Numbered from the stretch's first letter, positions 3,274 through 28,822 are shown. The stretch is 51,403 nt of DNA from Elusimicrobia bacterium GWC2_61_19 (GCA_001799795.1 MGUD01000029.1:1-51403), one strand, 5' to 3'. A program made the numbers and translations. Notes: a model not told the origin generated them from the letters alone.

Positions 3274-3732
3274 TCAGGCTTTCTGTGCTGAACTAATCTG
3301 CTCTTGCACTTTCTTTCTGAACTCTAGTGGGGTGGCTATCCTTGCAAAAGGGGTATGTGTGCCGCCCGTGCCTGTAACTGTTATGGTTCCGTAGTTAAGC
3401 ATTCTTCCAAATAAGCTCTGGTCAACCTGGATTCCTTCTATTTTGGCCAGAAGCGTTTCAAGGGATTTTCGCCTAATAAAACCGACTTTAATGAGTACAC
3501 GCTTGTTGGTTATTCCAAATTCAGCGGTCTTGTAATTTATTAAGGCAGATATCCCAGTGATTAGTGCTATGAAAAAGAAAAAAGCGGCACCACTGCTATT
3601 GTTATTGCCTCCAATTGCAGACAATAGGCCAAGAAGTATCCAAACTGCCGTCCAAAAGAATACCATCCAATGTAATTTGGTGCGGTAGAGTACCTGCTCA
3701 CCCTCTAACAGATTTGTGTCGATATATCCCAT
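3274..3732 (-). CDS. Bacterial PH-domain membrane protein (bPH2/DUF304 type)
   Basis: 152 residues. The N-terminus (LLEGEQVLYRTKLHW) is the usual lead-in of the bPH2 family. Two membrane segments follow, at about residues 22-42 (WMVFFWTAVWILLGLLSAIGG) and 48-66 (GAAFFFFIALITGISALIN). A soluble C-terminal domain (FGITNKRVLIKVGFIRRKSLETLL, then IEGIQVDQSLFGRMLNYGTI) has the TNKRV...G...R....I..I..I.V.QS..GR.L.YG.I signature of bacterial PH domains (YdbS/YdbT-like). The biochemical role of such proteins is unknown; most are predicted inner-membrane proteins. It stands alone on the minus strand, converging on the DUF2075 fragment. Confidence 0.85.
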   Translation of the reverse strand: MGYIDTNLLEGEQVLYRTKLHWMVFFWTAVWILLGLLSAIGGNNNSSGAAFFFFIALITGISALINYKTAEFGITNKRVLIKVGFIRRKSLETLLAKIEGIQVDQSLFGRMLNYGTITVTGTGGTHTPFARIATPLEFRKKVQEQISSAQKA

Positions 3733-5070: not shown

Positions 5071-5136
5071 TGCACAGCCGACTTGGACGGCGACGGCCAG
5101 ATGACCGTGCTGGATCTGGACCACATCCTGAAATAA
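5071..5136 (+). pseudogene. Remnant C-terminal dockerin-like tail, copy 1
   Basis: The frame ends ADLDGDGQMTVLDLDHILK-stop. This has the D-x-D-x-D-G-x-x-T-x-x-D pattern of the last calcium-binding repeat of a type I dockerin or EF-hand tail. No start codon or upstream domain remains. A second copy of the last 14 codons lies at 5886-5930. Both copies sit directly upstream of a hairpin-promoter module and seem to have been duplicated with it. Confidence 0.5.
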
Positions 5137-5234
5137 TCCAAAATTGCCGTTTTGCAACACGACACTACGTTGTCGGGTTGGTCTGCTATGCTATTTGTAT
5201 CGCAAGGGGGGATTATGTCTAAAGAACTTATTCC
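5095..5234 (+). repeat. About 140-bp direct repeat, copy 1 (partner at 5889-6028)
   Basis: Contains the dockerin-like tail, the hairpin, the extended -10, the ribosome site and the first seven codons (MSKELIP) of the next gene. The second copy has the same order and closely similar sequence and leads into MSKEIVP of a different gene family. The repeat therefore crosses from non-coding into coding sequence. Confidence 0.75.
5156..5196 (+). promoter_or_regulatory. Hairpin plus extended -10 module, copy R1 (upstream of ORF6N gene)
   Basis: A CGACA/TGTCG hairpin is followed by GGTCTGCTATGCTATTT. TG-C-TATGCT (5184-5192) fits an extended -10 promoter. Transcription would begin near 5199, leaving a leader of about 16 bases that holds AAGGGGGG before ATG 5215. 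The same module recurs five more times in the window. Promoter function is inferred from the conserved bases. Confidence 0.6.
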
Positions 5235-5774: not shown

Positions 5775-5825
5775 GGTGTGCCATGGTGCGAAGGCCAGGG
5801 CATGGTGCTGGGGGTGCCGGCGGGG

Positions 5826-5846
5826 GTAGGGGACGCTGCTTCCTAT
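5826..5846 (+). repeat. GDAAS module, copy D1 (decayed)
   Basis: GTAGGGGACGCTGCTTCC followed by TAT. It matches the module that ends three other reading frames at 7041, 12,069 and 15,758. Here the stop has changed to TAT and no obvious reading frame enters it. Confidence 0.65.
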
Positions 5847-5885
5847 CTTCCTAATTCGATGGAACACATGTTTGTTGTTTAATTC

Positions 5886-5930
5886 CACGGGCAAATGACC
5901 GTGCTGGACCTGGACCACATCCTTAAATAA
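5886..5930 (+). pseudogene. Remnant dockerin-like tail, copy 2
   Basis: Reads HGQMTVLDLDHILK-stop, the same ending as the fragment at 5071-5136. It lies 19 bases before hairpin module R2 and has no upstream gene of its own. It is part of the ~140-bp direct repeat. Confidence 0.5.
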
Positions 5931-6028
5931 CTCAAAAATAGCGATTCCCAACCCGACACTACGCTGTCGGGGTCGTCTGCTATTCTATTTATGCGGCAAG
6001 GGGGGCTTATGTCTAAAGAAATTGTTCC
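5889..6028 (+). repeat. About 140-bp direct repeat, copy 2
   Basis: Partner of 5095-5234: dockerin-like tail, hairpin, extended -10, ribosome site and the first codons of the next gene (MSKEIVP). Most differences lie in the spacer between the tail and the hairpin. Confidence 0.75.
5950..5990 (+). promoter_or_regulatory. Hairpin plus extended -10 module, copy R2 (upstream of yhcG-like gene)
   Basis: AACCCGACA-N6-TGTCGGGGT hairpin, then TGC-TATTCT as extended -10, then CAAGGGGGG before ATG 6009. Same layout and spacing as R1. An in-frame ATG at 5991 overlaps the likely transcription start and is not used. Confidence 0.6.
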
Positions 6029-7061
6029 AGGTTACGGCACGTTGCTGGCGGATATTAAGCAGCGCGTGCGCGAAGCGCAGAACGCGGCGCTAAGGGCCGC
6101 CAATACGGAAGCGGTAAGCCTGTATTGGGATATAGGGCAGATGATAATTTCGCGGCAGGAGGGAGATACGTGGGGAAAAGCTGTGGTTATTAGGCTCTCT
6201 TTTGACCTGCAAAAAGAATTCCCGGGTGTTCGCGGGTTTTCTTCTCAGAATTTATGGAGGATGCGCCAGTTTTATCAGGAATACTCAAAAAACATAAAAC
6301 TCTCACCATTGGTGAGAGAAATAGCCTGGACACAGAATCTCATTATAATGATGGGGTGCAAAGATGATTCTGAAAGGGAGTTTTACCTGCGCGCCGCGCG
6401 CAAGTACGGATGGACAAAAGCCGTGCTGACGCTGAATATAGAGGCCGGGACTTACCAGAAGTATCTGGTCAACCAAACCAACTTCGACGCCACTGTCCCC
6501 GAAAAAGTTCGCAGCCAGGCCAAGTTGGCGATAAAGGACGAATACACCTTCGCTCTGATGGGGCTTGGCGAAGAGCACAGCGAAAAAGAATTGGAGAGAG
6601 CCCTGATCTCGAAGGTGAATAAGTTCCTGACCGAAATGGGCGGGGTTTTCGCTTTTGTCGGCAGTCAGTACCGGCTTGAGGTGGACGGCCAGGAATACTT
6701 CATAGACATCCTCCTCTACCATAGGCATCTGAAATGCCTTGTGGCGGTAGAGCTGAAGGTGGGCGAGTTCATGCCGGAATACATCGGCAAGATGCAGTTC
6801 TACCTGGCCGCGCTGGACTCGCTGGTTAAAACGCCAGAGGAAAACCCGTCCATCGGGATAGTTATCTGCAAGAGCAAGAAGCGGATGATAGTTGAATATT
6901 CGCTGCGGGAATCCAAAAAGCCTATAGGCGTTTCCACTTACAAAGTCTTTAAAACTGTGCCTGATAATTTAAAGGGAGAACTTCCTTCACCGGCCCAGGT
7001 CTCCCTGCTGCTTGAAGAGGGCTTTGGCGGCGGAGCGGGCGTAGGGGACGCTGCTTCCTAA
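6009..7061 (+). CDS. PDDEXK nuclease of the YhcG/DUF1016 family
   Basis: 350 residues from ATG 6009. The N-terminal DUF1016 domain shows LYWDIGQMI, GVRGFSSQNLWRMRQFY, and PLVREIAWTQNL. The C-terminal PD-(D/E)XK domain shows FIDILLYHRHLKCLVAVELK (D...E-x-K) and NPSIGIVICKSK. All usual motifs are present, so it is probably active. Family members occur on mobile elements and in restriction loci; the substrate is not settled. Codons 98-104 carry a 19-bp perfect palindrome (6300-6318). The last seven residues, GVGDAAS, are not native: they come from a repeat module beginning at 7041. The first codons are shared with the ORF6N gene through the duplicated promoter cassette. Confidence 0.9.
   Translation: MSKEIVPGYGTLLADIKQRVREAQNAALRAANTEAVSLYWDIGQMIISRQEGDTWGKAVVIRLSFDLQKEFPGVRGFSSQNLWRMRQFYQEYSKNIKLSPLVREIAWTQNLIIMMGCKDDSEREFYLRAARKYGWTKAVLTLNIEAGTYQKYLVNQTNFDATVPEKVRSQAKLAIKDEYTFALMGLGEEHSEKELERALISKVNKFLTEMGGVFAFVGSQYRLEVDGQEYFIDILLYHRHLKCLVAVELKVGEFMPEYIGKMQFYLAALDSLVKTPEENPSIGIVICKSKKRMIVEYSLRESKKPIGVSTYKVFKTVPDNLKGELPSPAQVSLLLEEGFGGGAGVGDAAS
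6300..6318 (+). repeat. 19-bp perfect palindrome inside the yhcG-like gene
   Basis: CTCTCACCATTGGTGAGAG, 9-bp arms around a single T. It encodes LSPLVRE, a stretch commonly conserved in this family. It differs in sequence from the GGTNGC palindromes of the neighbouring genes. Confidence 0.75.
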
Positions 7062-7174
7062 CTTCCTGATTCTGCAGGGCTCTTGTCTTTTAGTTCCATT
7101 CCCCGGCCAGAATCGCAAAAAAATCCCAAAAAGAACCCGACACTACGCTGTCGGGTTGGTGTGCTATACTATTT
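7041..7174 (+). repeat. 134-bp intergenic repeat, copy 1 (partner 12,069-12,202)
   Basis: Starts GTAGGGGACGCTGCTTCC, includes the stop of the yhcG-like gene and an A-rich stretch (CAAAAAAATCCCAAAAAG), and ends with hairpin module R3. The copy at 12,069 has the same length and about 10 mismatches by eye. Read on the minus strand, the hairpin is followed by CTTTTTGGGATTTTTTTG, a fair terminator against antisense transcription. Confidence 0.8.
7134..7174 (+). promoter_or_regulatory. Hairpin plus extended -10 module, copy R3 (upstream of Bro-N gene)
   Basis: AACCCGACA-N6-TGTCGGGTT, then TGC-TATACT, the copy closest to the consensus -10. The leader to ATG 7218 is longer here (43 bases), and the fixed AAGGGGGG ribosome site is replaced by AGCAGGGGTG. 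Confidence 0.6.
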
Positions 7175-7217
7175 TTATCTTGCGGAGATTTGTATTTCTA
7201 AGCAGGGGTGATAAATT

Positions 7218-8042
7218 ATGGAAACACCTAAAATTGCAGTATTCAAGGGCCAAAAGATCAGGAAAATAGTTCACAACAACGAGTGGTGGTTCGTCATTGT
7301 GGATGTGGTCGCGGCTTTGACCGGATCTGTGCGGCCAGAGGGGTACATTACGGATATGCGCCGGCGCGACCCGGAGCTTTCCAAAGGGTGGTGGCAAATT
7401 GCCACCCCCCTTTCGCTTCCTACTGCGGGGGGCGCACAAAAAATTAACTGCGCCAATATCGAAGGCGTTTTTCGCCTGATCCAATCAATCCCATCTCCTA
7501 AAGCCGAACCGTTCAAACGCTGGCTGGCTAAAGTCGGCTACGAGCGGGTACAGGAAATTGAAGATCCAGAATTGGCGACTAAACGGACCAGGATGCTTTA
7601 CAAACTCAAGGGCTATTCGGAAGATTGGATAGAGAAACGAATGCGCGGCATCGCTATCCGTGAGGAACTGACCGATGAATGGCAGAAGCGCGGCGCGAAG
7701 GAAGAAAAAGACTACGAAATCCTGACTGCGGAGATTTCCAAGGCTACGTTCGGCCTGATCCCCAGCCAGTACAAAAAGCTGAAAGGCCTAAAGCGGCAGA
7801 ATCTGCGTGACCACATGGACGACTTCGAGCTGATCTTTAATATGCTGGGCGAGCGCGCCACCACTGAAATTCACCGCACTGAGCACTCCAAAGGCGTGCC
7901 AAAATTAAAATCCGACGCCAAGGCGGGCGGCGACATTGCCGGTGGCGCCAGGAAGAAACTGGAAAAACGGCTCGGCCGGTCGATCGTGTCGAAGAAGAAT
8001 TTCCTGGCTAAGCCGGAAGATAAAAGATTGTCCGGGGAATAA
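7218..8042 (+). CDS. Bro-N (phage antirepressor-like) protein
   Basis: 274 residues. The N-terminal Bro-N domain (IVHNNEWWFVIVDVVAAL, INCANIEGVFRLIQSIPSP) runs to about residue 110. It is followed by the conserved linker of this subfamily (KAEPFKRWLAKVGYERVQEI, LYKLKGYSEDWIEKRMRGIA) and the C-terminal block ISKATFGLIPSQYKKLKGLK, NLRDHMDDFELIFNMLGERA. This arrangement is that of a widespread Bro-N/DinD-like family on prophages and accessory islands; DNA-binding regulation is the expected role. The gene looks complete. Codons about 59-63 hold the palindrome GGTGGCAAATTGCCACC, which encodes part of GWWQIATP, a point where relatives vary. Confidence 0.88.
   Translation: METPKIAVFKGQKIRKIVHNNEWWFVIVDVVAALTGSVRPEGYITDMRRRDPELSKGWWQIATPLSLPTAGGAQKINCANIEGVFRLIQSIPSPKAEPFKRWLAKVGYERVQEIEDPELATKRTRMLYKLKGYSEDWIEKRMRGIAIREELTDEWQKRGAKEEKDYEILTAEISKATFGLIPSQYKKLKGLKRQNLRDHMDDFELIFNMLGERATTEIHRTEHSKGVPKLKSDAKAGGDIAGGARKKLEKRLGRSIVSKKNFLAKPEDKRLSGE
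7390..7406 (+). repeat. 17-bp palindrome inside the Bro-N gene
   Basis: GGTGGCAAATTGCCACC has 8-bp arms and one central base. It shares the GGTNGCA...TGCNACC frame with palindromes at 5420-5436 and 5758-5774 and encodes WWQIAT; the ORF6N copy encodes RSQNAT in the same phase. Confidence 0.8.
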
Positions 8043-8046
8043 CGTT

Positions 8047-8071
8047 AGCCGGTTGCGAACTGTAACCGGCT
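8047..8071 (+). repeat. Hairpin after the Bro-N gene
   Basis: AGCCGGTT, 9 bases, AACCGGCT. The inner 17 bases (GGTTGCGAACTGTAACC) look like a decayed member of the GGTNGC palindrome family. It begins 4 bases after the Bro-N stop. There is no T-tract, so a terminator is uncertain. Confidence 0.5.
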
Positions 8072-8103
8072 GAAAGGACCGGGGGCAAAATGGTGAAAAA
8101 ATT

Positions 8104-8763
8104 ATGTGGCTTCTGATCGTTGCCATCATTATTCTGCTGGCGGTTAAATTCCTTGCCGGGAATATCCCGCAAGCCGCCGGCACCACTATGTACCGGCGTG
8201 AACGGTTTATGTCGGACGCGGAAACGCGGTTCTACCAGGCTCTGCACTCGGCTGTGGGGGCACAAGCCCGCATATTCGTTAAGCCGCGTTTGCGGGACCT
8301 TGTGTCGGCTATAGATCCTAACCGCTCCAGGTGGCAGACGCGCAGCAATCAGTTAAACATGAAGCATGTGGATTTTTTGCTTTGCGACCCGCTGACTCTT
8401 GCCCCGGCCTGCGTAATTGAGCTGGACGACAGTTCGCACGAGCGCAGCGACAGGCAGGCCCGCGATAATTTCGTGAACGAAGTCCTTAAGTCCGCCGGCC
8501 TCCCCATAGCGCATTTTGCGGTAAGGGCCAGCTATTCGGCGGAAGAAATTACCCGGGAGCTGGCGCAATATTTACCAGGTTTGGTAAGCTCTCGCGGGGC
8601 GAATCGCCCGTCAGTTCAGCCTTCCCAGCCTCAAGCGCCCGCCAAGCCCAAAAGCCGCGCCGTTCTGATCCCCACCGAGCCGCCTCCCGTTGCCGTGCCT
8701 AAAGATATGAAATACATGCCGCCCTCACTAAGGGCGGATTTCGAAAAGCAAAATGGTGCATAG
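8104..8763 (+). CDS. DUF2726 protein with N-terminal membrane anchor
   Basis: 219 residues. Residues 2-20 (WLLIVAIIILLAVKFLAG) form one membrane segment. Residues about 33-155 match DUF2726: RFMSDAETRFYQAL, IFVKPRLRDLV, HVDFLLCD, CVIELDDSSHER, RDNFVNEVLKSAGLPIAHF. The D...ExD pattern recalls the PD-(D/E)XK fold (D in HVDFLLCD, ELDD), which is how this family is usually classed; activity is not shown. A proline-rich linker and a short tail ending YMPPSLRADFEKQNG follow. The ATG at 8090 leads to an early stop, so 8104 is the start. It sits 61 bases after Bro-N and is probably co-transcribed with it. Confidence 0.8.
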   Translation: MWLLIVAIIILLAVKFLAGNIPQAAGTTMYRRERFMSDAETRFYQALHSAVGAQARIFVKPRLRDLVSAIDPNRSRWQTRSNQLNMKHVDFLLCDPLTLAPACVIELDDSSHERSDRQARDNFVNEVLKSAGLPIAHFAVRASYSAEEITRELAQYLPGLVSSRGANRPSVQPSQPQAPAKPKSRAVLIPTEPPPVAVPKDMKYMPPSLRADFEKQNGA

Positions 8764-8821
8764 GGAAATAAACCCGCATTAGGGTAAGTTATCAACGGAT
8801 AGTCTCTGGAGGACTCATATA

Positions 8822-9574
8822 ATGAAAGTGCTTGGGATAATAGTGTCCATCTGTATTGTCAGTTTTGTCAGCAACCTCGGGGCAGTCGAAAAGGGAACAA
8901 TGTTTAATGTTGCCGGTGTTATGGCTGCCACGGTGTATGATGAGGGTGGAAATGGGGTAATAGGGAATGTGTATCCCAAGGGCGCTGTTCCTGTTGTTGA
9001 TGAGCAAGGAAGTTATTACAAAGTTGTAGTGGATGGCTGGGTCGGAAAAGATAAGATTAAAAAATCCAAAAAAAAGAATCTATTTGGAAAATATGCTACC
9101 ACAATAGATGAAACGGAATTGCTTGATAACCCTGCAAAAGATGCCGGGAAGTATTGTGCCGTTAGAAAGGGCGTCTCGCTGTATATTCAGGGGGAGAAAG
9201 GTGATTGGGTTAAAGTAAGATTTTCTGGGTGGACCGAGAAAGGTCTTTTAGAGGAGTCAGCAAAGAAAAAGGCTGAGACGCCTGCTCGCCCGATAGAAAT
9301 TACAAACTGGGACTGGAAAAATCTTGGGACATCGATAAAGATAGACGGGATAGTGAAAAATAACACTGACAAGGTTTATCATTTTGTTAAATTGAAAATA
9401 AAAATTGCGAATAAAAATAATGAGGACTTGGGTTTAGGGGAAGCTTTTGTTGAAAGAAAAGAGTTTAAGCCCGGAGAGAAGGCTGGCTTTACCGCCTACA
9501 TAGATGGTGCGGCTACCGAGGAGAACGCGGTTAGAATGAGTTATGACTGGGATAGCGTGGAAACTGGTAAGTGA
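8822..9574 (+). CDS. Secreted SH3-domain protein with C-terminal FxLYD-like domain
   Basis: 250 residues with a strong GGAGG site before ATG. Residues 1-21 (VLGIIVSICIVSFVSNLGAV) are a signal peptide. Two SH3b-like units follow: GNGVIGNVYPKGAVPVV...YYKVVVDGWVGKD, and CAVRKGVSLYIQGEKGDWVK...SGWTEKGLL. The last ~80 residues (NWDWKNLGTSIKIDGIVKNN...FVKLKIKIANKNNEDLG...FKPGEKAGF) resemble the FxLYD domain of secreted proteins. SH3b domains usually bind cell wall, so a periplasmic or envelope role is inferred. The gene is strikingly AT-rich and lysine-rich compared with the core genes, consistent with recent transfer. Confidence 0.6.
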   Translation: MKVLGIIVSICIVSFVSNLGAVEKGTMFNVAGVMAATVYDEGGNGVIGNVYPKGAVPVVDEQGSYYKVVVDGWVGKDKIKKSKKKNLFGKYATTIDETELLDNPAKDAGKYCAVRKGVSLYIQGEKGDWVKVRFSGWTEKGLLEESAKKKAETPARPIEITNWDWKNLGTSIKIDGIVKNNTDKVYHFVKLKIKIANKNNEDLGLGEAFVERKEFKPGEKAGFTAYIDGAATEENAVRMSYDWDSVETGK

Positions 9575-9663
9575 CGGCCGATAGCGGGGGCGTTGCGGTT
9601 CCTACCGCTGCAATGGCCTCCGCTAAGCCCAAAAAGGGCCCCTTAATTCTAAAAAACACTAAA

Positions 9664-9706
9664 ACCCACCCCGACAGACCGTTGTCGGGGTGGTCTGCTA
9701 TGTTAT
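9664..9706 (+). promoter_or_regulatory. Hairpin module, divergent copy R4
   Basis: CCACCCCGACA-N6-TGTCGGGGTGG, then TCTGCTATGTTATT. The stem is longer than in other copies and the two arms have changed together, which supports selection on the hairpin rather than on the bases. It lies 100 bases before higB, which has its own consensus promoter further down. Confidence 0.55.
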
Positions 9707-9723
9707 TGATAAAAAATTGGGCC

Positions 9724-9752
9724 TTGACAGTGCGGGAAACGGCTGCTATAAT
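9724..9752 (+). promoter_or_regulatory. Consensus sigma-70 promoter of the higBA operon
   Basis: TTGACA (9724-9729), a 17-base spacer, TATAAT (9747-9752): a perfect match in both boxes with ideal spacing. The predicted start is near 9759, inside the operator palindrome. Confidence 0.9.
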
Positions 9753-9756
9753 ATGC

Positions 9757-9777
9757 TTATCACCTAAGGGGTGATAA
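9757..9777 (+). promoter_or_regulatory. Probable HigA operator
   Basis: TTATCACC-N5-GGTGATAA, a perfect inverted repeat with 8-bp arms placed just after the -10 box and over the expected transcription start. This is where an autorepressor would block initiation. HigA of the downstream operon is the obvious ligand. Confidence 0.75.
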
Positions 9778-9806
9778 GGTGAATATGATATAGGAAGGAA
9801 AATTTC

Positions 9807-10112
9807 GTGGAATTCCGTTTTAAAAGCGAGAAGCTCAAGCTACTATATACCAATGAGACAGGGGCTCATCGGTTTCCACCTGCGGTCGTTAGCGGTTTTT
9901 TTCGTGTGATGTCTGTTATAAAGTCCATCCCGGATGAGAGGGACTTATATTCTTTAAAAAGTTTGCATTATGAAAAGCTAAAAGGAACGCGAGGAAAGCT
10001 TGGAGAGCGTTCCTTACGGTTAAACGATCAGTGGCGACTGATCATCATGCTGGAAACCGACTCTAGAGGAAAGACCATTCTGGTCGTAGAGATCGGCGAC
10101 CATTATAAGTAA
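9807..10112 (+). CDS. higB: HigB/RelE-family toxin
   Basis: 101 residues from GTG 9807, with AGGAAGGA upstream. The sequence has the HigB pattern: a short N-terminus, LHYEKLKGTRGKLGERSLRL, NDQWRLIIML and a final VVEIGDHYK (usual form ..D.HY). This family consists of ribosome-dependent mRNA interferases of the RelE fold. The antitoxin gene follows after 15 bases. NDQWR is coded by a small palindrome (GATCAGT-N4-ACTGATC). The order toxin first, antitoxin second is typical of higBA and unlike most other toxin-antitoxin pairs. Confidence 0.9.
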   Translation: MEFRFKSEKLKLLYTNETGAHRFPPAVVSGFFRVMSVIKSIPDERDLYSLKSLHYEKLKGTRGKLGERSLRLNDQWRLIIMLETDSRGKTILVVEIGDHYK

Positions 10113-10127
10113 AACACGGAGGGAGAG

Positions 10128-11225
10128 ATGACTTTAGTACCTGCAAGGGTGGCAAGGCCTGGAGAGGTCATTGCTTTGGAGCTTGAAGCCAGGGGTTGGA
10201 CCCAGAAGGACTTGGCGGAGATAATGGGCCGGCCGCTTCAGGTTGTAAACGAGATCGTGAACGGCAATAAGCAGATCACCCCGGCGACTGCGCACGAACT
10301 GGCCCAGGTCTTTGGCACAACGCCCGAGGTCTGGATGAATCTTGAAACCAATTATCGACTGTTCGCCGCGCGCAAAGAGGCGGGCAGCGACGATATCAAG
10401 CGCAGAAGCAGGATCTACAGCCTTGCGCCAGTTAAAGAGCTGATAAAAAAGGGATGGATCCCTAATATACTGGCCCTGGATGAACTGGAGAAGAATGTCT
10501 GCGAGTTCCTTGGGCTCCGGGATATCAGCATGATGCCAAACTTTGGTGTGCCCGTAAGCAGAAGGCATTCGGAGGCGCGTGAGCCCGAGGGTATGGCGCA
10601 GATAGCTGTTCTGATGCGCGCCAGGCATCTGGCAAAAAGACACAAGGTGGCCAAGTTTAACGCTAGTAAGTTCAAGGCGGCTATCCCTGAGCTGCTTGAG
10701 TTCACAAAGGATGTTAAAAGCATAGAGAAACTACCCGCATTTTTTGCAAATTTAGGGGTGCACCTAATCATTGTCCCCGCATTGTCGCATTCTTATATGG
10801 ACGGGGCAGTGTTTTATGCGGAAGCTAATCCGGTGATCTTATTGACGCTCCGGTATGACAGGGTGGATAACTTCTGGTTTACCTTAACGCACGAGGTCGC
10901 TCACCTGTTTGCGAACCACCACGGGGTGCACATTGATAGTAATTTGGAGAAGCCTTCGGATGTTGCCGCGGAACAGACCGCGGATAAACTGGCCAGCGAA
11001 TGGCTTCTTGATTCAACGATGTATGATAAATATGTGACCAGCAGCCGACACTTCTATTCCAGAGAAAACATAGCCGCCTACGCAAACAGCGTAAACCGGC
11101 ACCCGGGCATTGTGCTTGGCAGACTGCATCATCAAAAAGAAGTCCCGTACTCGCATTTGCGCGGTATGTTAGAGAAAGTTAGCCCATACTTGCAAAAGTG
11201 TATTGATACCAGTTATGCGGTTTAA
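10128..11225 (+). CDS. higA: HigA antitoxin fused to an ImmA/IrrE metallopeptidase domain
   Basis: 365 residues. Residues 10-80 are the HigA-type XRE domain: PGEVIALELEARGWTQKDLA, VNEIVNGNKQITPATAHELA, FGTTPEVWMNLE. The C-terminal half is an ImmA/IrrE (M78-like) peptidase: FWFTLTHEVAHLFANHHGVH has the zinc motif H255-E-V-A-H259, with EQTADKLASEWLL downstream supplying the third ligand region. Plain HigA is about 100 residues, so this is the long HTH-peptidase form. It should repress the promoter at 9724 through the operator at 9757. The peptidase could control turnover of itself or of a partner; that is inference. Confidence 0.88.
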   Translation: MTLVPARVARPGEVIALELEARGWTQKDLAEIMGRPLQVVNEIVNGNKQITPATAHELAQVFGTTPEVWMNLETNYRLFAARKEAGSDDIKRRSRIYSLAPVKELIKKGWIPNILALDELEKNVCEFLGLRDISMMPNFGVPVSRRHSEAREPEGMAQIAVLMRARHLAKRHKVAKFNASKFKAAIPELLEFTKDVKSIEKLPAFFANLGVHLIIVPALSHSYMDGAVFYAEANPVILLTLRYDRVDNFWFTLTHEVAHLFANHHGVHIDSNLEKPSDVAAEQTADKLASEWLLDSTMYDKYVTSSRHFYSRENIAAYANSVNRHPGIVLGRLHHQKEVPYSHLRGMLEKVSPYLQKCIDTSYAV

Positions 11226-11286
11226 TGATCGCACTGTTTAATCGAGCCTTTTGATTAGTCTTGAAGTGTTGGTCTTGAAAACTATT

Positions 11287-11739
11287 ATGAAAAACATTAA
11301 TGCTAAGGGTTTAATATTTCTGAGTATTATCGCAATCCCGGCTATCGCAAGCGCTGGTTTTGCAGATTTTTTTGGGATTGGGGCGGTTGCCAAATCAATA
11401 AGTGATGCTACGTGGAAAATATATGCCGTAAAGACGGCTGCAACAGTAATGCCGATTATCTTTCTGATTACTGCAATAGCCGGAACAATGGTTGCCGCGT
11501 GTGCCATAGTTAAAGTCGGAGATGCTTTTGTGGATACAGCAAGGAATGTGCTTAAGGATGACAAAGTCGGCAATACCGAAAAAGCAATATTGATTGTACA
11601 GACTTTATATACGCTGTTGGCTGTTGTAATGTTTGCAGCAATGGGCGTGATGTTGGCGCTCGTGGTGTACAATGGGTGTAAGGACATCTTCACATACACG
11701 CCACCGGCCATAGAAGAAAAAGTTGCCTTGAAAAAGTAA
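11287..11739 (+). CDS. Small membrane protein, unknown
   Basis: 150 residues from ATG 11287 (MKNINAKGLIFLSIIAIPAI...). An upstream in-frame start at 11,251 would place charged and beta-type residues before the signal and is less likely. There is a signal peptide or first membrane helix at about residues 8-25, a second helix at about 52-75 (TVMPIIFLITAIAGTMVAAC) and a third at about 110-130 (LYTLLAVVMFAAMGVMLALV). Short soluble loops (VKVGDAFVDTARNVLKDDKV) and a charged tail follow. The gene is AT-rich like its neighbours. I do not recognise the family. It follows higA by 61 bases. Confidence 0.5.
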   Translation: MKNINAKGLIFLSIIAIPAIASAGFADFFGIGAVAKSISDATWKIYAVKTAATVMPIIFLITAIAGTMVAACAIVKVGDAFVDTARNVLKDDKVGNTEKAILIVQTLYTLLAVVMFAAMGVMLALVVYNGCKDIFTYTPPAIEEKVALKK

Positions 11740-11780
11740 CCATGACTCCCTATGTGTATGGCTAAAAGTATTTTAGACCA

Positions 11781-12089
11781 CATTCACAGTTAGAGCGCGA
11801 ATACCACAAGTCCTTCAAAAAAATCACTATTGCCCCCAGGGTGCTGCTTGGCTTAACCGCCACGCCCGAGCGCATGGGCGGCGAAAGCATCCTCCCGTAT
11901 TTCGAGCACCGCATAGCGGCCGAGCTCAGGCTGCCCGAAGCCCTGGACGAAAAGCTGCTTTGCCCGTTCCAGTACTTCGGCGTGGCGGACCCGGTAAGCG
12001 TTGAAGACGACCGTTTCTGGCAGGCCGGCCGCTACAACACCGGCGCGCTGGAGGCGGCTTACGGGGGCGTAGGGGACGCTGCTTCCTAA
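11781..12089 (+). pseudogene. Fragment of a DEAD/DEAH-type helicase (DUF3427-linked, COG1061-like)
   Basis: The frame reads HSQLEREYHKSF, then VLLGLTATPERMGGE (helicase motif III region), FEHRIAAELRLPEALDEKLL and PFQYFGVAD. These match the middle of large superfamily 2 helicases that carry a DUF3427 C-terminus. Walker A is absent on the left and the second RecA domain on the right. The frame enters the 134-bp repeat at 12,069 and ends GVGDAAS-stop. About 100 residues out of perhaps 900 remain, so this is a dead fragment captured between repeats. Its codon use is GC-rich, unlike the genes just upstream. Confidence 0.75.
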
Positions 12090-12202
12090 CTTCCTGATTC
12101 GGCAGGGCTCTTGTCTTTTAGTCCCATTCTCGGGCCAAAACCTCAAAAAAATCCCAAAAAGAACCCGACACTACGCTGTCGGGTTCGTCTGCTATGCTAT
12201 TT
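12069..12202 (+). repeat. 134-bp intergenic repeat, copy 2
   Basis: Partner of 7041-7174: same length, with about 10 substitutions by eye. It supplies the stop codon of the helicase fragment at one end and the promoter module R5 of the next gene at the other. Confidence 0.8.
12162..12202 (+). promoter_or_regulatory. Hairpin plus extended -10 module, copy R5 (upstream of AlbA_2 gene)
   Basis: AACCCGACA-N6-TGTCGGGTT hairpin, TGC-TATGCT extended -10, then GGCAGGGGGGCTT before ATG 12,220. Spacing from -10 to ATG is nearly the same as for R1 and R2. Confidence 0.6.
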
Positions 12203-12219
12203 AGGCGGCAGGGGGGCTT

Positions 12220-13587
12220 ATGACTCTTAGGGAAAGCGAAACGCTGGAATTAAAAAGATCCACTTCCGAACTTAAGGAAGCCGTAATTTCTATCGGGGCT
12301 ATACTTAACAAGCACGGTAGGGGCCGTGTATACTTTGGCATCGCGGACGACGGCGGCGTAGTGGGGCAACATATTGGCCGGGCTACGCTAAAGGATATTT
12401 CACAGGCGATCGCCGCCCATATCGACCCCAGGATATATCCCGATATCGAGGCCAGGGATATAGACGGCAAAAGCTGTGTTTTTGTTGATTTCAGCGGGCA
12501 CGACGGGTTGTATTCCGCTTACGGGCGGTTTTATCTGCGTTCAGGCGACGAAGACCGGAAACTGTCGGCCAGGGAAATAGCGAGGCTGATAGAAAAGAAG
12601 AAAAACTACGCGTATTCCTGGGGGACGGAACTGTCCGGAAGCGCGCCTTCGGGCGCGGACGGCCAGACGCTGCGGTCTTTTGTTAAACGGGGCAGGGATG
12701 CCGGCCGGATAAGTTTCTCTTTCGACTCCGCCCGGAATGTTTTGGCAAAACTGCATCTGGTAAGAGACGGTCAATTGCTAAATGCCGGCTGCGCGCTCTT
12801 CGGCAAAGACAATGCGCTGGAGGTGCAGGCCGCTATCTTCGCCGGCAAAGATAAAATCACATTTCTGGATATTCAAAGTTTTCACGGCAACATTTTTCAG
12901 TTGGCCGCCAGGAGCGAGGCCTACATAAAAGAGCACATAAACTGGCGGGCGGATCTTACGGGCAGCCAGAGGGTAGAAATCCCTGAAGTCCCGGTCCGGG
13001 CGGTCAGGGAGGCCATAATTAATTCCCTGTGTCACAGGGACTTTGATAACCCAAAAAGCAACGAGGTCGCGATCTACAAGGACAGGATAGAAATTTTCAA
13101 TCCGGGCCTTTTCCCCGGCGACTATTCGCCCAAGGATTTTATTAAAGGGTCCGAACCCAGCATCCCGCGTAACCCTCTTATAGCGGAAACGCTGTTCCGC
13201 TCCGAGGATATAGAGAAATGGGGTTCAGGCCTGAAGCGCATAAGCGAGGAATGCAGTGCTGCGGGCGTTAGGGTTAGTTTCAAGAGAATTAAAAGCGGCT
13301 TTACTGTAGTCTTTTTCAGGCCCGGGTTTAAAAAATCCAAAGGAGATATTGAAGCAGTTGGGGGTGTAAATGGTGGAGTAAATGGTGGAGTAAGTGGGGG
13401 AGTAAATATCCTTGAGGCGGAAATAAAAAAGAATCCGGGACAAAGGCTTCCCGGGCTTCGGGTTGCGCTGAAGGTTCCCGGGAGAACGATAGAGAACTGG
13501 ATACGTAAACTTAAAACAGCAGGCCGAATAATATACCGTGGTAGCTATAAAACAGGCGGCTATTTCCCAACAGGAAAAAATAGTTGA
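12220..13587 (+). CDS. AlbA_2 / Schlafen-like DNA-binding regulator (COG2865 type)
   Basis: 455 residues. Residues 1-120 are the AlbA_2 domain (ESETLELKRSTSELKEAVIS, ILNKHGRGRVYFGIADDG). The middle carries the HATPase_c_4-type region typical of COG2865: VPVRAVREAIINSLCHRDF, EIFNPGLFPGDYSP, NPLIAETLFRSEDIEKWGSG. A GGVN tandem repeat links this to a C-terminal winged-helix unit (VPGRTIENWIRKLKTAGRI). Members are sometimes annotated as RecG-like, but there is no helicase here. They are presumed transcriptional regulators on mobile elements. The gene looks intact. It contains a 17-bp palindrome at the conserved CHRD motif. The stop is followed by a short YhcG remnant. Confidence 0.85.
   Translation: MTLRESETLELKRSTSELKEAVISIGAILNKHGRGRVYFGIADDGGVVGQHIGRATLKDISQAIAAHIDPRIYPDIEARDIDGKSCVFVDFSGHDGLYSAYGRFYLRSGDEDRKLSAREIARLIEKKKNYAYSWGTELSGSAPSGADGQTLRSFVKRGRDAGRISFSFDSARNVLAKLHLVRDGQLLNAGCALFGKDNALEVQAAIFAGKDKITFLDIQSFHGNIFQLAARSEAYIKEHINWRADLTGSQRVEIPEVPVRAVREAIINSLCHRDFDNPKSNEVAIYKDRIEIFNPGLFPGDYSPKDFIKGSEPSIPRNPLIAETLFRSEDIEKWGSGLKRISEECSAAGVRVSFKRIKSGFTVVFFRPGFKKSKGDIEAVGGVNGGVNGGVSGGVNILEAEIKKNPGQRLPGLRVALKVPGRTIENWIRKLKTAGRIIYRGSYKTGGYFPTGKNS
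13024..13040 (+). repeat. 17-bp palindrome inside the AlbA_2 gene
   Basis: TCCCTGTGTCACAGGGA, 8-bp arms around one T, encoding SLCHRD. That motif is conserved in the family, so protein constraint may explain it. It is noted because sister genes also carry one palindrome each. Confidence 0.65.
13360..13407 (+). repeat. Four 12-bp tandem units encoding GGVN
   Basis: Four in-frame repeats of roughly GGTGGAGTAAAT give GGVN-GGVN-GGVS-GGVN. They form a flexible linker before the C-terminal winged helix of the AlbA_2 protein and could vary in copy number by slippage. Confidence 0.85.
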
Positions 13588-13600
13588 GATGGTGTGTGGA

Positions 13601-13687
13601 ATGAAGCGCTTTTACCTTGCCTATTCAGACGAGGCAATTTGGCGACAGGCCGTCGCCAAAATGGACTGGGACTGGCGCGGGTACTAA
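13601..13687 (+). pseudogene. Remnant of a second YhcG/DUF1016 gene
   Basis: A 28-codon frame reads MKRFYLAYSDEAIWRQAVAK, then MDWDWRGY and a stop. It resembles the DUF1016 segment (M)R.FY.AYPDEAI.QQ.VA.L.W. Nothing else of the gene remains. The tail WDWRGY looks like junk after a deletion. It lies between the AlbA_2 gene and the adenylate cyclase. Confidence 0.5.
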
Positions 13688-13734
13688 AGGCGGGAAGCGG
13701 GGGCGGGAATAAGTGTAAAATAAGCTACAGGCCT

Positions 13735-15438
13735 ATGAAAAAACTATCGCTGATACGGGAAAATTTCCACAAGCTGCACCTGGGGCTGTATGCCCTGTTC
13801 ATGCTGATGGTGTACTTTGGCAGCACCACGGCCTTCTTCTTCGAAAAATACTCGCTTATCGATACTGGTCTTGTTAAAGCCCAATGGCAGCAGCTTACCG
13901 ACGCCCAGGCCAAAGGGAGCAACTACAAGACCCCGGAAGCCACCCAGGAGAAGATCTATAAGTCGCTCAACCTTACGAAACGCGTCGGCGAGAAAGGGGC
14001 GATGACTTATGAATCCAGGTCCGCCAACCTGGATTTCTCTTTTGTCTTCCTGCTGCTCTGGCTTTTGCCGCTCTACAAGCATTACTTTTTGAAGAAGCCG
14101 CAGGATATAGGGCGCATAGAGCGCCGCATAATCGATCTCCCGCTGGTCATTTTTGCGCTTGGCTGGGTCGTAGCCGGGCAACGCTACTTCGGGAACGTAA
14201 CGACCTATGCGGATTATTTCGGGGCCGTGCCGCTCAGGGTCAAGGCGATCTTCGGCGTGTCGGCCCTGCTGCTGGGCGCTTTTGTCAGCTACCTGAACCT
14301 GGAGCTGACCGGCCTCTATGTCCGCCAGCGCCTGGCCAAGCCCTTCTTCCTTGAGAACAACCCCTACGGCGTAAAATCCGGCTTAGCCATAAGTCTTACG
14401 CTGCGGTACGCGCTCATGATGTTCTCGCTGGCCATGGTGCCGCTGCTGCTGTGCCTTTATGTTCCCGTCTACGGCAATTTCGACATCATAGCCGTTCTGC
14501 TGCACGGCAGCGACCAGGCCAGGCAACTGGTTTTAACGGAACATATAGGGGCGCTGGTGCCCATTGCCATAATAGCTCTCCTGACGGGGATCATCCTGGT
14601 CTTCCAGGCGGTTTCGATCCTGCTTTACCGCGCTAACGTGCAGAAACCGGTGAGCGCGCTGGTAGGGCGTATGAAGGCCGTGGCGGCGGGGGACTTCAGC
14701 TGCAAGACCTCAGTGCTGTACGCCGACGAACTGGGCCAGCTGAAGGGGCATTTTAATATGATGCTGGACGGCCTGGTGGAGCGGGACCATATCAAGGACA
14801 CTTTCGGCCGCTATGTTTCGCTGGAGATCGCCGAGAAGATAATGAAGAGCGGTAAGGTAAACCTGGCCGGCGAGGAGATACAGGCCACGGTGCTGTTCTC
14901 CGACATCAGGGGGTTCACGCCCATGAGCGAGAATCTCCCGCCGGTGGAGCTTATCCGCTTTCTTAACGAGTATTTCACCAGCGTCACCAAACCCATTACC
15001 GAAAACCGCGGGGTCATAAATAAATTCATGGGCGACGCCGTCATGGCCATCTTCTCGCCGGTGTTCGGGGTGGAGGACCACCAGGCGGCGGCGCTTAAGG
15101 CGGCCCTGGGCATGCGGGAGGCCCTGCGGGAGTTCAACGCGCGGGGGCATCACCCGGAGGTTTTCTTTGGCGTGGGCCTGCACAGCGGCGGGCTGGTGGC
15201 CGGCAACGTGGGCACGGCCGAGCGCCTTGAGTACACCGTGCTGGGCGACACGGTAAACGTGGCCTCGCGCATAGAGAGCCAGACCAAGACGGCGGCCACG
15301 CAGATACTGGTGAGCGAGGCCGTGGTGCGGGGCGTGGACAAAGGCAGTTTCCCCGGTTACGTCTTTGTGGAGTGCGCCCCCGTGCTTATGAAGGGCAAGT
15401 CTCGCCCGATGGTGCTTTACAAAGTAGAGCCGGCATGA
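13735..15438 (+). CDS. Membrane-bound class III adenylate/guanylate cyclase with HAMP domain
   Basis: 567 residues from ATG 13,735 (MKKLSLIRENFHKLHLGLYA); the frame is open further upstream but lacks a good start. Membrane segments lie near residues 15-35, 102-118, 138-155, 175-195, 225-250 and 275-300, with a periplasmic loop after the first. HAMP follows (VQKPVSALVGRMKAVAAGDF). The catalytic domain has TVLFSDIRGFTPMSE (first metal Asp), NKFMGDAVMAIF (second metal Asp), GLHSGGLVAGNVG and YTVLGDTVNVASRIES. This is a complete class III cyclase; ATP versus GTP preference cannot be fixed by eye. The next gene overlaps by 4 bases (ATGA), so the two are co-translated. Confidence 0.92.
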   Translation: MKKLSLIRENFHKLHLGLYALFMLMVYFGSTTAFFFEKYSLIDTGLVKAQWQQLTDAQAKGSNYKTPEATQEKIYKSLNLTKRVGEKGAMTYESRSANLDFSFVFLLLWLLPLYKHYFLKKPQDIGRIERRIIDLPLVIFALGWVVAGQRYFGNVTTYADYFGAVPLRVKAIFGVSALLLGAFVSYLNLELTGLYVRQRLAKPFFLENNPYGVKSGLAISLTLRYALMMFSLAMVPLLLCLYVPVYGNFDIIAVLLHGSDQARQLVLTEHIGALVPIAIIALLTGIILVFQAVSILLYRANVQKPVSALVGRMKAVAAGDFSCKTSVLYADELGQLKGHFNMMLDGLVERDHIKDTFGRYVSLEIAEKIMKSGKVNLAGEEIQATVLFSDIRGFTPMSENLPPVELIRFLNEYFTSVTKPITENRGVINKFMGDAVMAIFSPVFGVEDHQAAALKAALGMREALREFNARGHHPEVFFGVGLHSGGLVAGNVGTAERLEYTVLGDTVNVASRIESQTKTAATQILVSEAVVRGVDKGSFPGYVFVECAPVLMKGKSRPMVLYKVEPA

Positions 15439-15779
15439 GGATCTGGGATATAGAGCCGCGCAGGCTGTGCCGCAACCACCTGCTGGGGGAGCACCGGGAG
15501 CTGCATTGCATCTGGGTGGTGCTGACGCAGGGGAAGAAGGGTTATTCCCGGCACCCGGAAACGCTGCGCTGGCGCGGCCGCCTGAAGGCGCTGTACCGGC
15601 GGCACACGGCGCTGGTGGCCGAAATGGCGCAAAGGGGCTACAACCATAAAAGCCCGCTGGATAAACGCCTGGCCACCGGCAGCGCCGTCCAGAATATTTT
15701 TATAGATCCCCCGCGGCGCCAGCTGCAACTGCTGGCCGGCAAAAAATGCGCCTGCCGTACAGGGGACGCTGCTTCCTAA
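15435..15779 (+). CDS. Pyrimidine dimer DNA glycosylase/endonuclease V-like (Pyr_excise family)
   Basis: 114 residues from ATG 15,435, overlapping the cyclase stop as ATGA. It shows MRIWDIEPRRLCRNHLLGEH, RELHCIWVVLTQGKKGYSRH and the later MAQRGYNHKSPLD. These match the family of T4 DenV, which starts base-excision repair of UV dimers; the Glu of GEHRELH is in the place of the catalytic acid. The tail is unusual: after KKCACR the frame runs into a repeat module and ends TGDAAS. The native C-terminus may thus have been replaced, although the conserved core is present. Coupling to an adenylate cyclase is unexpected and may be chance. Confidence 0.8.
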   Translation: MRIWDIEPRRLCRNHLLGEHRELHCIWVVLTQGKKGYSRHPETLRWRGRLKALYRRHTALVAEMAQRGYNHKSPLDKRLATGSAVQNIFIDPPRRQLQLLAGKKCACRTGDAAS

Positions 15780-15780
15780 A
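15758..15780 (+). repeat. GDAAS module, copy D4
   Basis: GTACAGGGGACGCTGCTTCC followed by TAA. It ends the endonuclease V-like reading frame with TGDAAS-stop. Here the module is alone: no hairpin-promoter part follows, and the next gene has its own promoter. Confidence 0.7.
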
Positions 15781-18787: not shown

Positions 18788-18826
18788 TTAACCCTCCGTA
18801 AGCGTTGCCTACGATATTTTACATGA

Positions 18827-18864
18827 TTCGGAGGTTAAACCAAGTTGGAGGTTCAACCTCCGAA
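18827..18864 (+). repeat. REP-like hairpin with GGAGGTTCAACCTCC core
   Basis: TTCGGAGGTT and AACCTCCGAA arms enclose a further palindrome (GGAGGTTCAACCTCC, 18,847-18,861); CCTTTTTT follows. It lies between divergent genes, so a terminator has no upstream plus-strand gene to serve. The same core recurs at 27,387-27,423. Confidence 0.6.
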
Positions 18865-18872
18865 CCTTTTTT

Positions 18873-18913
18873 AACCCGACACTACGCTGTCGGGTTGGTC
18901 TGCTATGCTATTT
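18873..18913 (+). promoter_or_regulatory. Hairpin plus extended -10 module, copy R6 (upstream of ssb)
   Basis: AACCCGACA-N6-TGTCGGGTT, then TGC-TATGCTATTT, 40 bases before ATG 18,953. The leader contains GTAAGGGGGAAGT in place of the fixed ribosome site. This is the only copy outside the island. Confidence 0.55.
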
Positions 18914-18952: not shown

Positions 18953-19423
18953 ATGGGGAACCTGAATAAAGTAATGCTGATGGGGCGGCTGACGCGGGAC
19001 CCGGAGGTGACGGAGTTCAAGAACGGCGGCAAGGTGGCCAATCTGGGCTTTGCCGTGCATAACCGGCGCAAGAACGCCAATACCGGCGAGTGGGAGGAAA
19101 CGCCGGTGTGGCTGAACATGAAGGCCTACAACCACGAGCACGGGCGGAAGCTGGCGGACCTGGCCGGCCTGCTGAAGAAAGGGCGGCAGGTGTTCGTTGA
19201 GGGGCACCTGGTGCTGGAGCAGTGGGACGGCAAAGAGGACGGCAAGCACCATTCCAAACTGTTCGTGTACGTGGACGGCATAGAGTTCACGGGCGAGAAG
19301 CCGCGCGAAGAAGGCGAGCCCGCGCCCGGCCCCGCGGACCATGCCCCCGGCGAGCACGTGGCCGACGCCGGCTGGCCGGAAGAGGCGGCCCCCAAGCCGG
19401 CCAAGGCGGGACGCCGGAAATAA
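18953..19423 (+). CDS. Single-stranded DNA-binding protein, paralogue 1 (no acidic tip)
   Basis: 156 residues. Residues 3-110 are a bacterial SSB OB-fold: LNKVMLMGRLTRDPEVTEFK, KVANLGFAVHNR, LADLAGLLKKGRQVFVEGHL, FVYVDGIEF. The tail is Pro/Ala/Glu-rich and ends AKAGRRK. It lacks the acidic -DDxPF-type tip that recruits replication and repair partners. A second SSB at 24,937 has such a tip. This one sits behind hairpin module R6, like the island genes. It may be a specialised or acquired SSB, for example for competence or a mobile element; that is inference. Confidence 0.9.
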   Translation: MGNLNKVMLMGRLTRDPEVTEFKNGGKVANLGFAVHNRRKNANTGEWEETPVWLNMKAYNHEHGRKLADLAGLLKKGRQVFVEGHLVLEQWDGKEDGKHHSKLFVYVDGIEFTGEKPREEGEPAPGPADHAPGEHVADAGWPEEAAPKPAKAGRRK

Positions 19424-19851: not shown

Positions 19852-19928
19852 GGGGACGCTCTTAGTTAATTAGTTTTCTATGTGAGCGGACCAGGGGCTA
19901 TTAAAACTAACTAACTAAGAGCGTCCCC
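19852..19928 (+). repeat. 77-bp near-perfect palindrome P1 (MITE/REP-like)
   Basis: Arms of 26 bases starting GGGGACGCTCTTAGTTAATT pair with the right end (…AACTAAGAGCGTCCCC) with one mismatch, around a 25-base centre. A 91-bp relative lies at 28,732. The left edge GTAGCCGGGGACGCT recalls the GTAG foot of REP elements moved by Y1 (RAYT) transposases. The start codon of the next gene follows after one base. Confidence 0.85.
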
Positions 19929-24936: not shown

Positions 24937-25386
24937 ATGGCGAATTTGAACAAAGTAATGCTTATCGGCCGGCTCACGCGCGAGCCCGAAATAAAGGAAT
25001 TCAGCAACGGCGGCAAGGTTGCCAATATCGGCTTTGCCGTGAACAACCGCCGCAAGAACCAGAAGACCGGCCAGTGGGAGGAAGTCCCTGTGTGGGTGGA
25101 CCTGAAAGCTTTCAACCGCGAAACCGGCCGCAAGCTGGCCGACCTGATAGAGAAATACCTGCACAAGGGTTCCCAGGCCTACGTGGAAGGCCACCTGGTG
25201 CTCGAGGAATGGGCCGGCAAGGAAGACGGCAAGAAGCAGAGCAAGATGGTGGTCTATGTGGACGAAATAGAATTCCTGGGCAGCCGCGGCGATAATGCCG
25301 GCGCGCCCTCCGAAGCGGCCGAACCCGCGGCCAAAGCGTCGGCGTCCGCCTCCGGCGGCGACGGCATAGAAGAAGTCCCGTTCTAA
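24937..25386 (+). CDS. ssb: Single-stranded DNA-binding protein, paralogue 2 (main SSB)
   Basis: 149 residues with an AACAGGAG ribosome site. The OB-fold spans residues 3-110 (LNKVMLIGRLTREPEIKEFS, KVANIGFAVNNR, KGSQAYVEGHLVLEEW, VVYVDEIEFLG). A flexible Ala/Ser/Gly linker leads to the tip GIEEVPF, the acidic-hydrophobic motif by which SSB contacts repair and replication proteins. This is therefore the likely housekeeping SSB, in contrast to the tipless copy at 18,953, with which it shares most of its first 110 residues. It ends before a strong double hairpin. Confidence 0.94.
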   Translation: MANLNKVMLIGRLTREPEIKEFSNGGKVANIGFAVNNRRKNQKTGQWEEVPVWVDLKAFNRETGRKLADLIEKYLHKGSQAYVEGHLVLEEWAGKEDGKKQSKMVVYVDEIEFLGSRGDNAGAPSEAAEPAAKASASASGGDGIEEVPF

Positions 25387-27382: not shown

Positions 27383-27386
27383 CCGC

Positions 27387-27423
27387 CCGGAGGTTCAACC
27401 TCCGTTGGAGGTTGAACCTCCGG
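27387..27423 (+). repeat. REP-like perfect hairpin with GGAGGTTCAACCTCC cores
   Basis: CCGGAGGTTCAACCTCC, GTT, then the exact reverse complement: 17-bp stem and 3-base loop. Each arm is itself a palindrome. There is no T-tract. The core is shared with 18,847-18,861, so it is a dispersed element rather than a plain terminator. Confidence 0.85.
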
Positions 27424-27470
27424 ACGGGTTCTGTTTGACCTTTGGGCCGGGGTATGAGAAAATATAGTTA

Positions 27471-28731: not shown

Positions 28732-28822
28732 GGGGACGCTCTTAGTTAATTAGTTTTTGTGTCTGACTGGTTTCGCGGTTCGCGAAGCCGAGTCCAAAAA
28801 CTAATTAACTAAGAGCGTCCCC
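28732..28822 (+). repeat. 91-bp palindrome P2 (MITE/REP-like)
   Basis: Perfect 27-base arms starting GGGGACGCTCTTAGTTAATT, with an inner hairpin (GGTTTCGCG-GTT-CGCGAAGCC) in the 37-base centre. Same arms as P1 at 19,852 but a different centre. It fills the gap between the convergent MazG-like and pruA genes and may terminate both. Confidence 0.88.

Follow-up and report, generated by a model that had tools for sequence, protein, structure and literature searches.

Palindromic ends of putative TIRYT-type transposons as a source of gene 3′ ends in Elusimicrobia bacterium GWC2_61_19

In a 51,403-nucleotide stretch from Elusimicrobia bacterium GWC2_61_19 (the window, meaning the whole stretch analyzed), a 21-bp module recurs at the ends of several genes, which raises the question of how unrelated proteins came to share the C terminus GDAAS and the stop codon behind it. 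Very probably, the module derives from the ends of TIRYT-type Y1 (HUH) transposons and their short nonautonomous palindromic derivatives, whose arms capture stop codons for neighboring genes and whose left end carries a LexA-type SOS promoter. The layout of the arms, their pairing, their position around Y1 genes and at gene 3′ ends, and the replacement of native protein tails can all be read in the DNA.

Stop codons supplied at gene 3′ ends

The module (GTAGGGGACGCTGCTTCCTAA) was exact at 7041 and 12069, with two mismatches at 15759 and one at 5826; no copies are expected in shuffled sequence. An earlier interpretation made without database searches (the sequence-only reading) had noted this repetition, which held up, and had called the copy at 5826 decayed. 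That copy is present but barely decayed, as it differs solely in the last base of its stop codon (TAT). It was ruled out as a working stop module, given its mutated stop and the lack of any gene reading into it. At 7041 and 12069, the module forms the left end of a 134-bp repeat ending at the so-called hairpin promoter, as had been proposed: positions 7037 to 7174 and 12065 to 12202 share 93% identity over 138 bp, and this DNA identity runs on past the stop codon. The module copies and the genes that end in them are as follows.

5822 to 5895, plus strand: intergenic solo left arm plus a portion of the spacer, stop mutated to TAT (sequence)
5991 (or 6009) to 7061, plus strand: YhcG/DUF1016 PDDEXK nuclease gene, C terminus replaced (orthologue tails and domain match)
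7041 to 7061, plus strand: 21-bp module, outer part of the terminal inverted repeat (TIR) arm, giving VGDAAS and stop to YhcG (tails of relatives are different and longer)
11841 to 12089, plus strand: superfamily II helicase gene fragment (intact open reading frame [ORF] in locus L156)
12069 to 12089, plus strand: 21-bp module closing the cut helicase ORF with GDAAS and stop (the intact ORF in L156 runs past this point)
15435 to 15779, plus strand: Pyr_excise pyrimidine-dimer glycosylase gene ending in the arm (domain match)
15759 to 15779, plus strand: TIR-arm stub (18 bp GGGGACGCTGCTTCCTAA, then unrelated DNA), GDAAS and stop for the Pyr_excise gene (sequence)

Reading of the ORFs agreed with the earlier claim that the module donates GDAAS and a stop codon to three genes, namely, YhcG, the helicase fragment, and the Pyr_excise glycosylase. 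YhcG orthologues end like ASTAKEPRGKYLVLAG, whereas YhcG of GWC2_61_19 ends VGDAAS; likewise, XerC orthologues end HPRSKK and XerC of GWC2_61_19 ends HPRSRGRS. L156 has an intact helicase, whereas the window copy breaks off at TGALEAAY; the two DNA sequences share 93% identity. At the cut site, the relative's DNA holds GACGACGCTGCC and the arm has GACGCTGC, a microhomology that may have helped the join.

Across the GWC2_61_19 genome (1.36 Mb; 66% complete), arm-derived C termini were found in nine genes, ending in GDAAS (n = 3), RGRS (n = 4), GTLLVN (n = 1), or GDADSLIPN (n = 1). No further proteins ending GDAAS, RGRS, or GTLLVN were present among the 1255 predicted complete genes, a count that is approximate because genes were called with a simple hexamer-based caller. 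Whether a protein ends in GDAAS, RGRS, or GTLLVN depends on the arm subtype and the frame in which it is entered. Stops occur in all three frames of arm C and of the D-type arm on contig C19, and in two frames of arm A.

Curation of the genome copies gave 32 elements (26 inverted pairs and 6 solo arms), for which 58 sides were scored. Seventeen sides lay 0 to 15 bp from a gene 3′ end (17/58, versus 6.8% expected) and a further 11 overlapped one; sides at or over gene 5′ ends numbered 4. With 28/58 sides over or at most 15 bp from a 3′ end, placement departs from randomness with respect to gene ends; random placement was the outcome that the sequence-only reading had said would undo its claim.

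One such gene encodes an XerC/D-like recombinase (G000:C16:80560-81480; locus L273), whose RGRS end comes from an element arm. The element exactly fills the gap between this gene and the next, the ATG of which follows the right tip, and in relatives the corresponding genes meet in short or overlapping junctions. The recombinase occurs throughout the genus.

Palindromic ends and Y1 transposases

Outside the window, a genome scan with the 17-mer GGGGACGCTGCTTCCTA returned mostly inverted pairs with copy starts 63 to 76 bp apart. A complete copy consists of two inverted arms and spans about 50 to 110 bp; as single DNA strands, such pairs fold to long perfect hairpins, and the several arm subtypes all share the tip GGGGACGCT. 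The genome also encodes three Y1_Tnp proteins (PF01797, above cut-off), the kind of transposase for which a search had been suggested. Inverted TIRs flank all three genes (GGGGACGCTCTTAGTTAATTAGTTTT on C20, GGGGACGCTGAT.. on C19, and GGGGTCAGGTCTTGCAATTTAGCAATTT on C10), with GGGGACGCT tips at two of them. Taking the best-matching loci in the genus together with these three, TIRs were found at 25 of the 29 Y1 loci scored; in the Y1 sequence of locus L044, the motifs NHIH and YIHLNP are readable. The C-terminal tail of the transposase gave weak Bac_DnaA_C matches (E=5.6e-6 and 9e-4), neither of which reached the curated cut-off.

The inverted pairing and the flanking of Y1 genes identify the module as an arm of a transposon TIR; judged by sequence, it is the outer arm of the palindromic, GGGGACGCT-tipped TIR of a TIRYT-type Y1 transposon. 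No fixed flank or target-site consensus was seen around the ends of the family over the 67 GGGGACGCT sites of a wider genome scan, a few of which are chance coding matches. The 18-bp GGGGACGCTGCTTCCTAA was present in 9 of 61 genomes searched (GWC2_61_19 included), all of one genus. A longer arm was present in named Elusimicrobia metagenome-assembled genomes (MAGs) and two further MAGs, which places the genome in the Elusimicrobiota.

Two complete elements of related subtype lie elsewhere in the window.

19852 to 19928, no strand assigned: complete palindromic element, related CTTAGTTAATTAG subtype (sequence)
28732 to 28822, no strand assigned: complete palindromic element, CTTAGTTAATTAG subtype, with the stop codon of each convergent neighbor 4 bp away (sequence)

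Palindromes of another type, GGAGGTTCAACCTCC, recurred at 18820 to 18860 and 27383 to 27427 of the window and at loci L274 and L279, some of them where the xerC genes of relatives end. The TIR of a Y1 locus in L209 resembles them, and the type is perhaps another Y1-linked family.

LexA-type boxes and hybrid promoters

The hairpin promoter at the right end of the 134-bp repeat matches a motif, CCCGACA-N6-TGTCGGG followed by a TGCTATRCTATTT-like extended −10, that has 16 copies in the genome, all scoring at least 25 bits; the next-best site scored no higher than 13.7. One copy lies between the divergent lexA and recA genes, and others precede ssb, comM, all three Y1 genes, and the YhcG, ORF6N, Bro-N, AlbA_2, HigB-like, and DUF3800-like genes. 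Every genome of the genus that was examined has such boxes; in relatives, they stand upstream of recA, ssb, comM, and genes that, judged by eye, look recQ-, radC-, and uvrD-like. At the 29 Y1 loci scored, 21 had a box upstream of the transposase gene, against only about 16 of some 1270 genes in the GWC2_61_19 genome. A LexA protein with an S24 domain is encoded at C15:13134-13790 (PF00717, E=6e-19; PF01726 above cut-off). From its position and the content of the regulon, we infer that the box is a LexA operator and part of an SOS promoter. To our knowledge, CCCGACA-N6-TGTCGGG is not among the known LexA motifs, and no paper on it as such was found in the open-access literature. In the LexA protein itself (G000:C15:13134-13790), the DNA-binding domain is divergent, and TASCGPA looks like a Cys-Gly cleavage site.

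The boxes of the window, and the two stretches in which the module is joined to one, are as follows.

5158 to 5177, plus strand: LexA-type box before the ORF6N gene (25.9 bits)
5952 to 5971, plus strand: LexA-type box before YhcG, kept in orthologues (motif score)
7037 to 7174, plus strand: left end (TIR arm plus spacer) joined at the LexA-type box to the Bro-N promoter (76% identity over 134 bp to the intact transposon of genome G017; right of the box, native Bro-N promoter of G027)
7136 to 7155, plus strand: LexA-type box CCCGACA-N6-TGTCGGG, the so-called hairpin and the hybrid junction point (motif score)
7162 to 7170, plus strand: extended −10 TGCTATACT (sequence)
7218 to 8042, plus strand: Bro-N domain gene behind the hybrid promoter (domain match)
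9670 to 9689, plus strand: LexA-type box before the HigB-like toxin/HTH-M78 gene pair (motif score)
12065 to 12202, plus strand: second left-end copy, joined at the LexA-type box to the AlbA_2 promoter (93% to 7037 to 7174, 75% to the G017 left end; right of the box, native AlbA_2 promoter of G021)
12164 to 12183, plus strand: LexA-type box before AlbA_2, hybrid junction point (motif score)
12220 to 13587, plus strand: SLFN_AlbA_2 gene behind the hybrid promoter (domain match)
18875 to 18894, plus strand: LexA-type box before ssb (18953 to 19423) (motif score)

The window has two ssb genes (18953 to 19423 and 24937 to 25386), and a box stands at the first only. Just upstream of two of the boxed promoters, a dockerin-like C-terminal fragment (MTVLDLDHILK and stop) is duplicated at 5093 to 5140 and 5887 to 5935, within a repeat of 142 nt (83%).

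A search of 32 genomes of the genus aligned the 134-bp repeat over its full length (76%) to a stretch of G017, where a Y1_Tnp match begins 57 bp after it and the order is left TIR, LexA-type box, Y1 gene, and inverted right TIR. The repeat is therefore a transposon left end together with the transposase promoter. In relatives, Bro-N (G027) and AlbA_2 (G021) carry LexA-box promoters of their own without a left TIR. The window copies of both genes are transposon-like to the left of and within the box core and native promoter-like to the right of it, with the hybrid junction in the right half of the box in each case. A sensitive scan found no right TIR after the window genes. Directly left of both 138-bp copies stands the 7-bp sequence GGGCGTA, which is absent at copies of the same subtype outside the window; given that no fixed flank was seen at the family's ends, it is taken to indicate duplication rather than target choice.

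These features suggest the following course. The Y1 enzyme would mobilize the elements in trans, in the form of folded single DNA strands. Most insertions into coding sequence or promoters would be lost, and those at the last codons of a gene would survive because the stops of the arm close the frame soon. The transposase promoter within the left end would consist of the LexA-type SOS box and the extended −10. For the hybrid promoters, the likeliest and simplest path is that a transposon inserted upstream of an SOS-box gene and that recombination between the two similar SOS promoters then deleted the transposase and the right end. One 138-bp unit may later have been duplicated from the other, as the common GGGCGTA flank suggests.

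Several points weigh against this account. The deletion step is deduced from two junctions, and insertion alone offers no explanation for the common flank. The 66%-complete genome yielded no autonomous transposon with the exact GCTTCCTAACTTCC arm, and the closest one, that of G017, has GCTTACTATCTTCC; neither transposition nor an empty/filled pair within one strain was seen. LexA binding is deduced from position and regulon content only, and the lexA start codon lies more than 130 bp from the box.

An island in G021 (L156, 1 to 7649) holds helicase, YhcG, DUF2726-like, and AlbA_2 genes with SOS boxes, a solo left arm at 3590, and a second helicase fragment after the island. Its gene set resembles that of the window, in another order.

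Alternative explanations and known systems

Genes with SOS boxes could instead be passengers between TIRYT ends, moved in trans as cargo. In the window, Bro-N and AlbA_2 occupy, behind the left end, exactly the place expected for a transposase gene, and in G021 a solo left arm stands just before the DUF2726-like gene. However, no right TIR was detected behind any of these genes, and the natural promoters of these genes exist in relatives without a left end; we consider this explanation unlikely.

The chances are smaller again that the palindromes are canonical GTAG repetitive extragenic palindromic (REP) sequences moved by a RAYT, although Y1 transposases and palindromes are both present and a 3′-end location is typical of REPs (PMC3733652). 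The sequence-only reading was reminded of REPs by a GTAG foot, but no conserved GT[AG]G stands at the foot of the hairpins: the bases before GGGG vary over the 67 sites, which favors TIRYT-type ends. In addition, the ends are long perfect TIRs flanking the transposase gene, and the weak DnaA_C-like tail resembles that of the TIR-associated subclass 2.1 (PMC6006769).

About as improbable, and marginally more so, is an integron-like gene-cassette array in which stop and start modules are recombination sites that move single genes. This was how the sequence-only reading arranged the locus, and it fits the shared orientation of the four copies (5826, 7041, 12069, and 15759) among defence-like and toxin-antitoxin-like genes, as well as the near-identical 138-bp units at two junctions. 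Against it, recA, ssb, and comM also have the start module, which in relatives precedes counterparts of the window genes with no stop module present, no closing right-hand arm was found downstream of the window genes, and one of the three GDAAS ORFs is merely a helicase fragment. Of that arrangement, a mobile-type repeat that supplies a C terminus and stop remains and the bracketing of cassettes does not: the start module is a LexA-type promoter shared across a regulon rather than a site of recombination, and the stop module and spacer form one transposon left end.

That GDAAS is a selected C-terminal tag, reached convergently by the three unrelated proteins that share it, is scarcely credible, as RGRS, GTLLVN, and GDADSLIPN arise from other arms and frames, the DNA identity at 7041 and 12069 extends past the stop, and YhcG orthologues lack GDAAS.

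Transposon ends of the TIRYT type thus remain the preferred source of the captured stops. More tentatively, and with the odds against so broad a statement, the TIRYT transposons of Elusimicrobiota may be SOS controlled and may spread or swap LexA-regulated promoters, their left ends recombining into the promoters of defence-like genes and so rebuilding the SOS regulon, while the arms rewrite the C termini of neighbors. This group of Y1 transposases is widespread but poorly understood; a recA-like box inside the transposon at 21/29 loci in one genus ties the group, by sequence, to the SOS response, and damage-induced single-strand transposition becomes directly testable outside Deinococcus. Palindromic ends with built-in stops that land at gene 3′ ends would also offer a simple route to new C termini.

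The kind of element is known already. Di Nocera et al. (2013; PMC3733652) named Y1 transposases associated with TIRs TIRYT and gave GGGGWSAS as the motif of the TIRs, the repeats of which are of moderate abundance; Quentin et al. (2018; PMC6006769) placed most TIR-associated Y1 transposases in subclass 2.1, with a helix-turn-helix tail. TIRYT elements or TIRtrons share with the present family a Y1 gene between TIRs that begin with GGGG, genomic TIR repeats that often form dimers, and perhaps a DnaA_C-like helix-turn-helix C-terminal tail, for which the match here is weak. They differ in the main tip, which here is GGGGACGC, a one-base variant matching GGGGWSAS at 7/8 positions (the C10 element, GGGGTCAG, matches fully). 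What appears new is the SOS box inside the transposon and the capture of stops: PMC3733652 does not mention LexA, which here has a putative box between left TIR and gene, and stop-codon capture by arms was not seen in the parts of PMC3733652 and PMC6006769 consulted. No LexA-type box inside a RAYT or IS200-like element was found in the open-access literature searched.

REPs and REPINs with their RAYTs are likewise short palindromes located where genes end; a Y1 enzyme probably moves them in trans, and insertions into genes are known. The present elements differ in having no conserved GTAG foot, longer perfect arms, and a transposase flanked by the same TIRs. The LexA/SOS regulons of other phyla share a LexA-S24 protein, recA, ssb, and a palindromic operator with the one described here, which differs in its motif and in including Y1 transposases and defence-like genes. 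A functional parallel is ISDra2 (IS200/IS605), for which PMC2806898 reports that irradiation triggers transposition in Deinococcus, linking Y1 transposition to DNA damage and single-stranded DNA; in the elements described here, by contrast, the link would be transcriptional, through the LexA-type box that the element itself carries.

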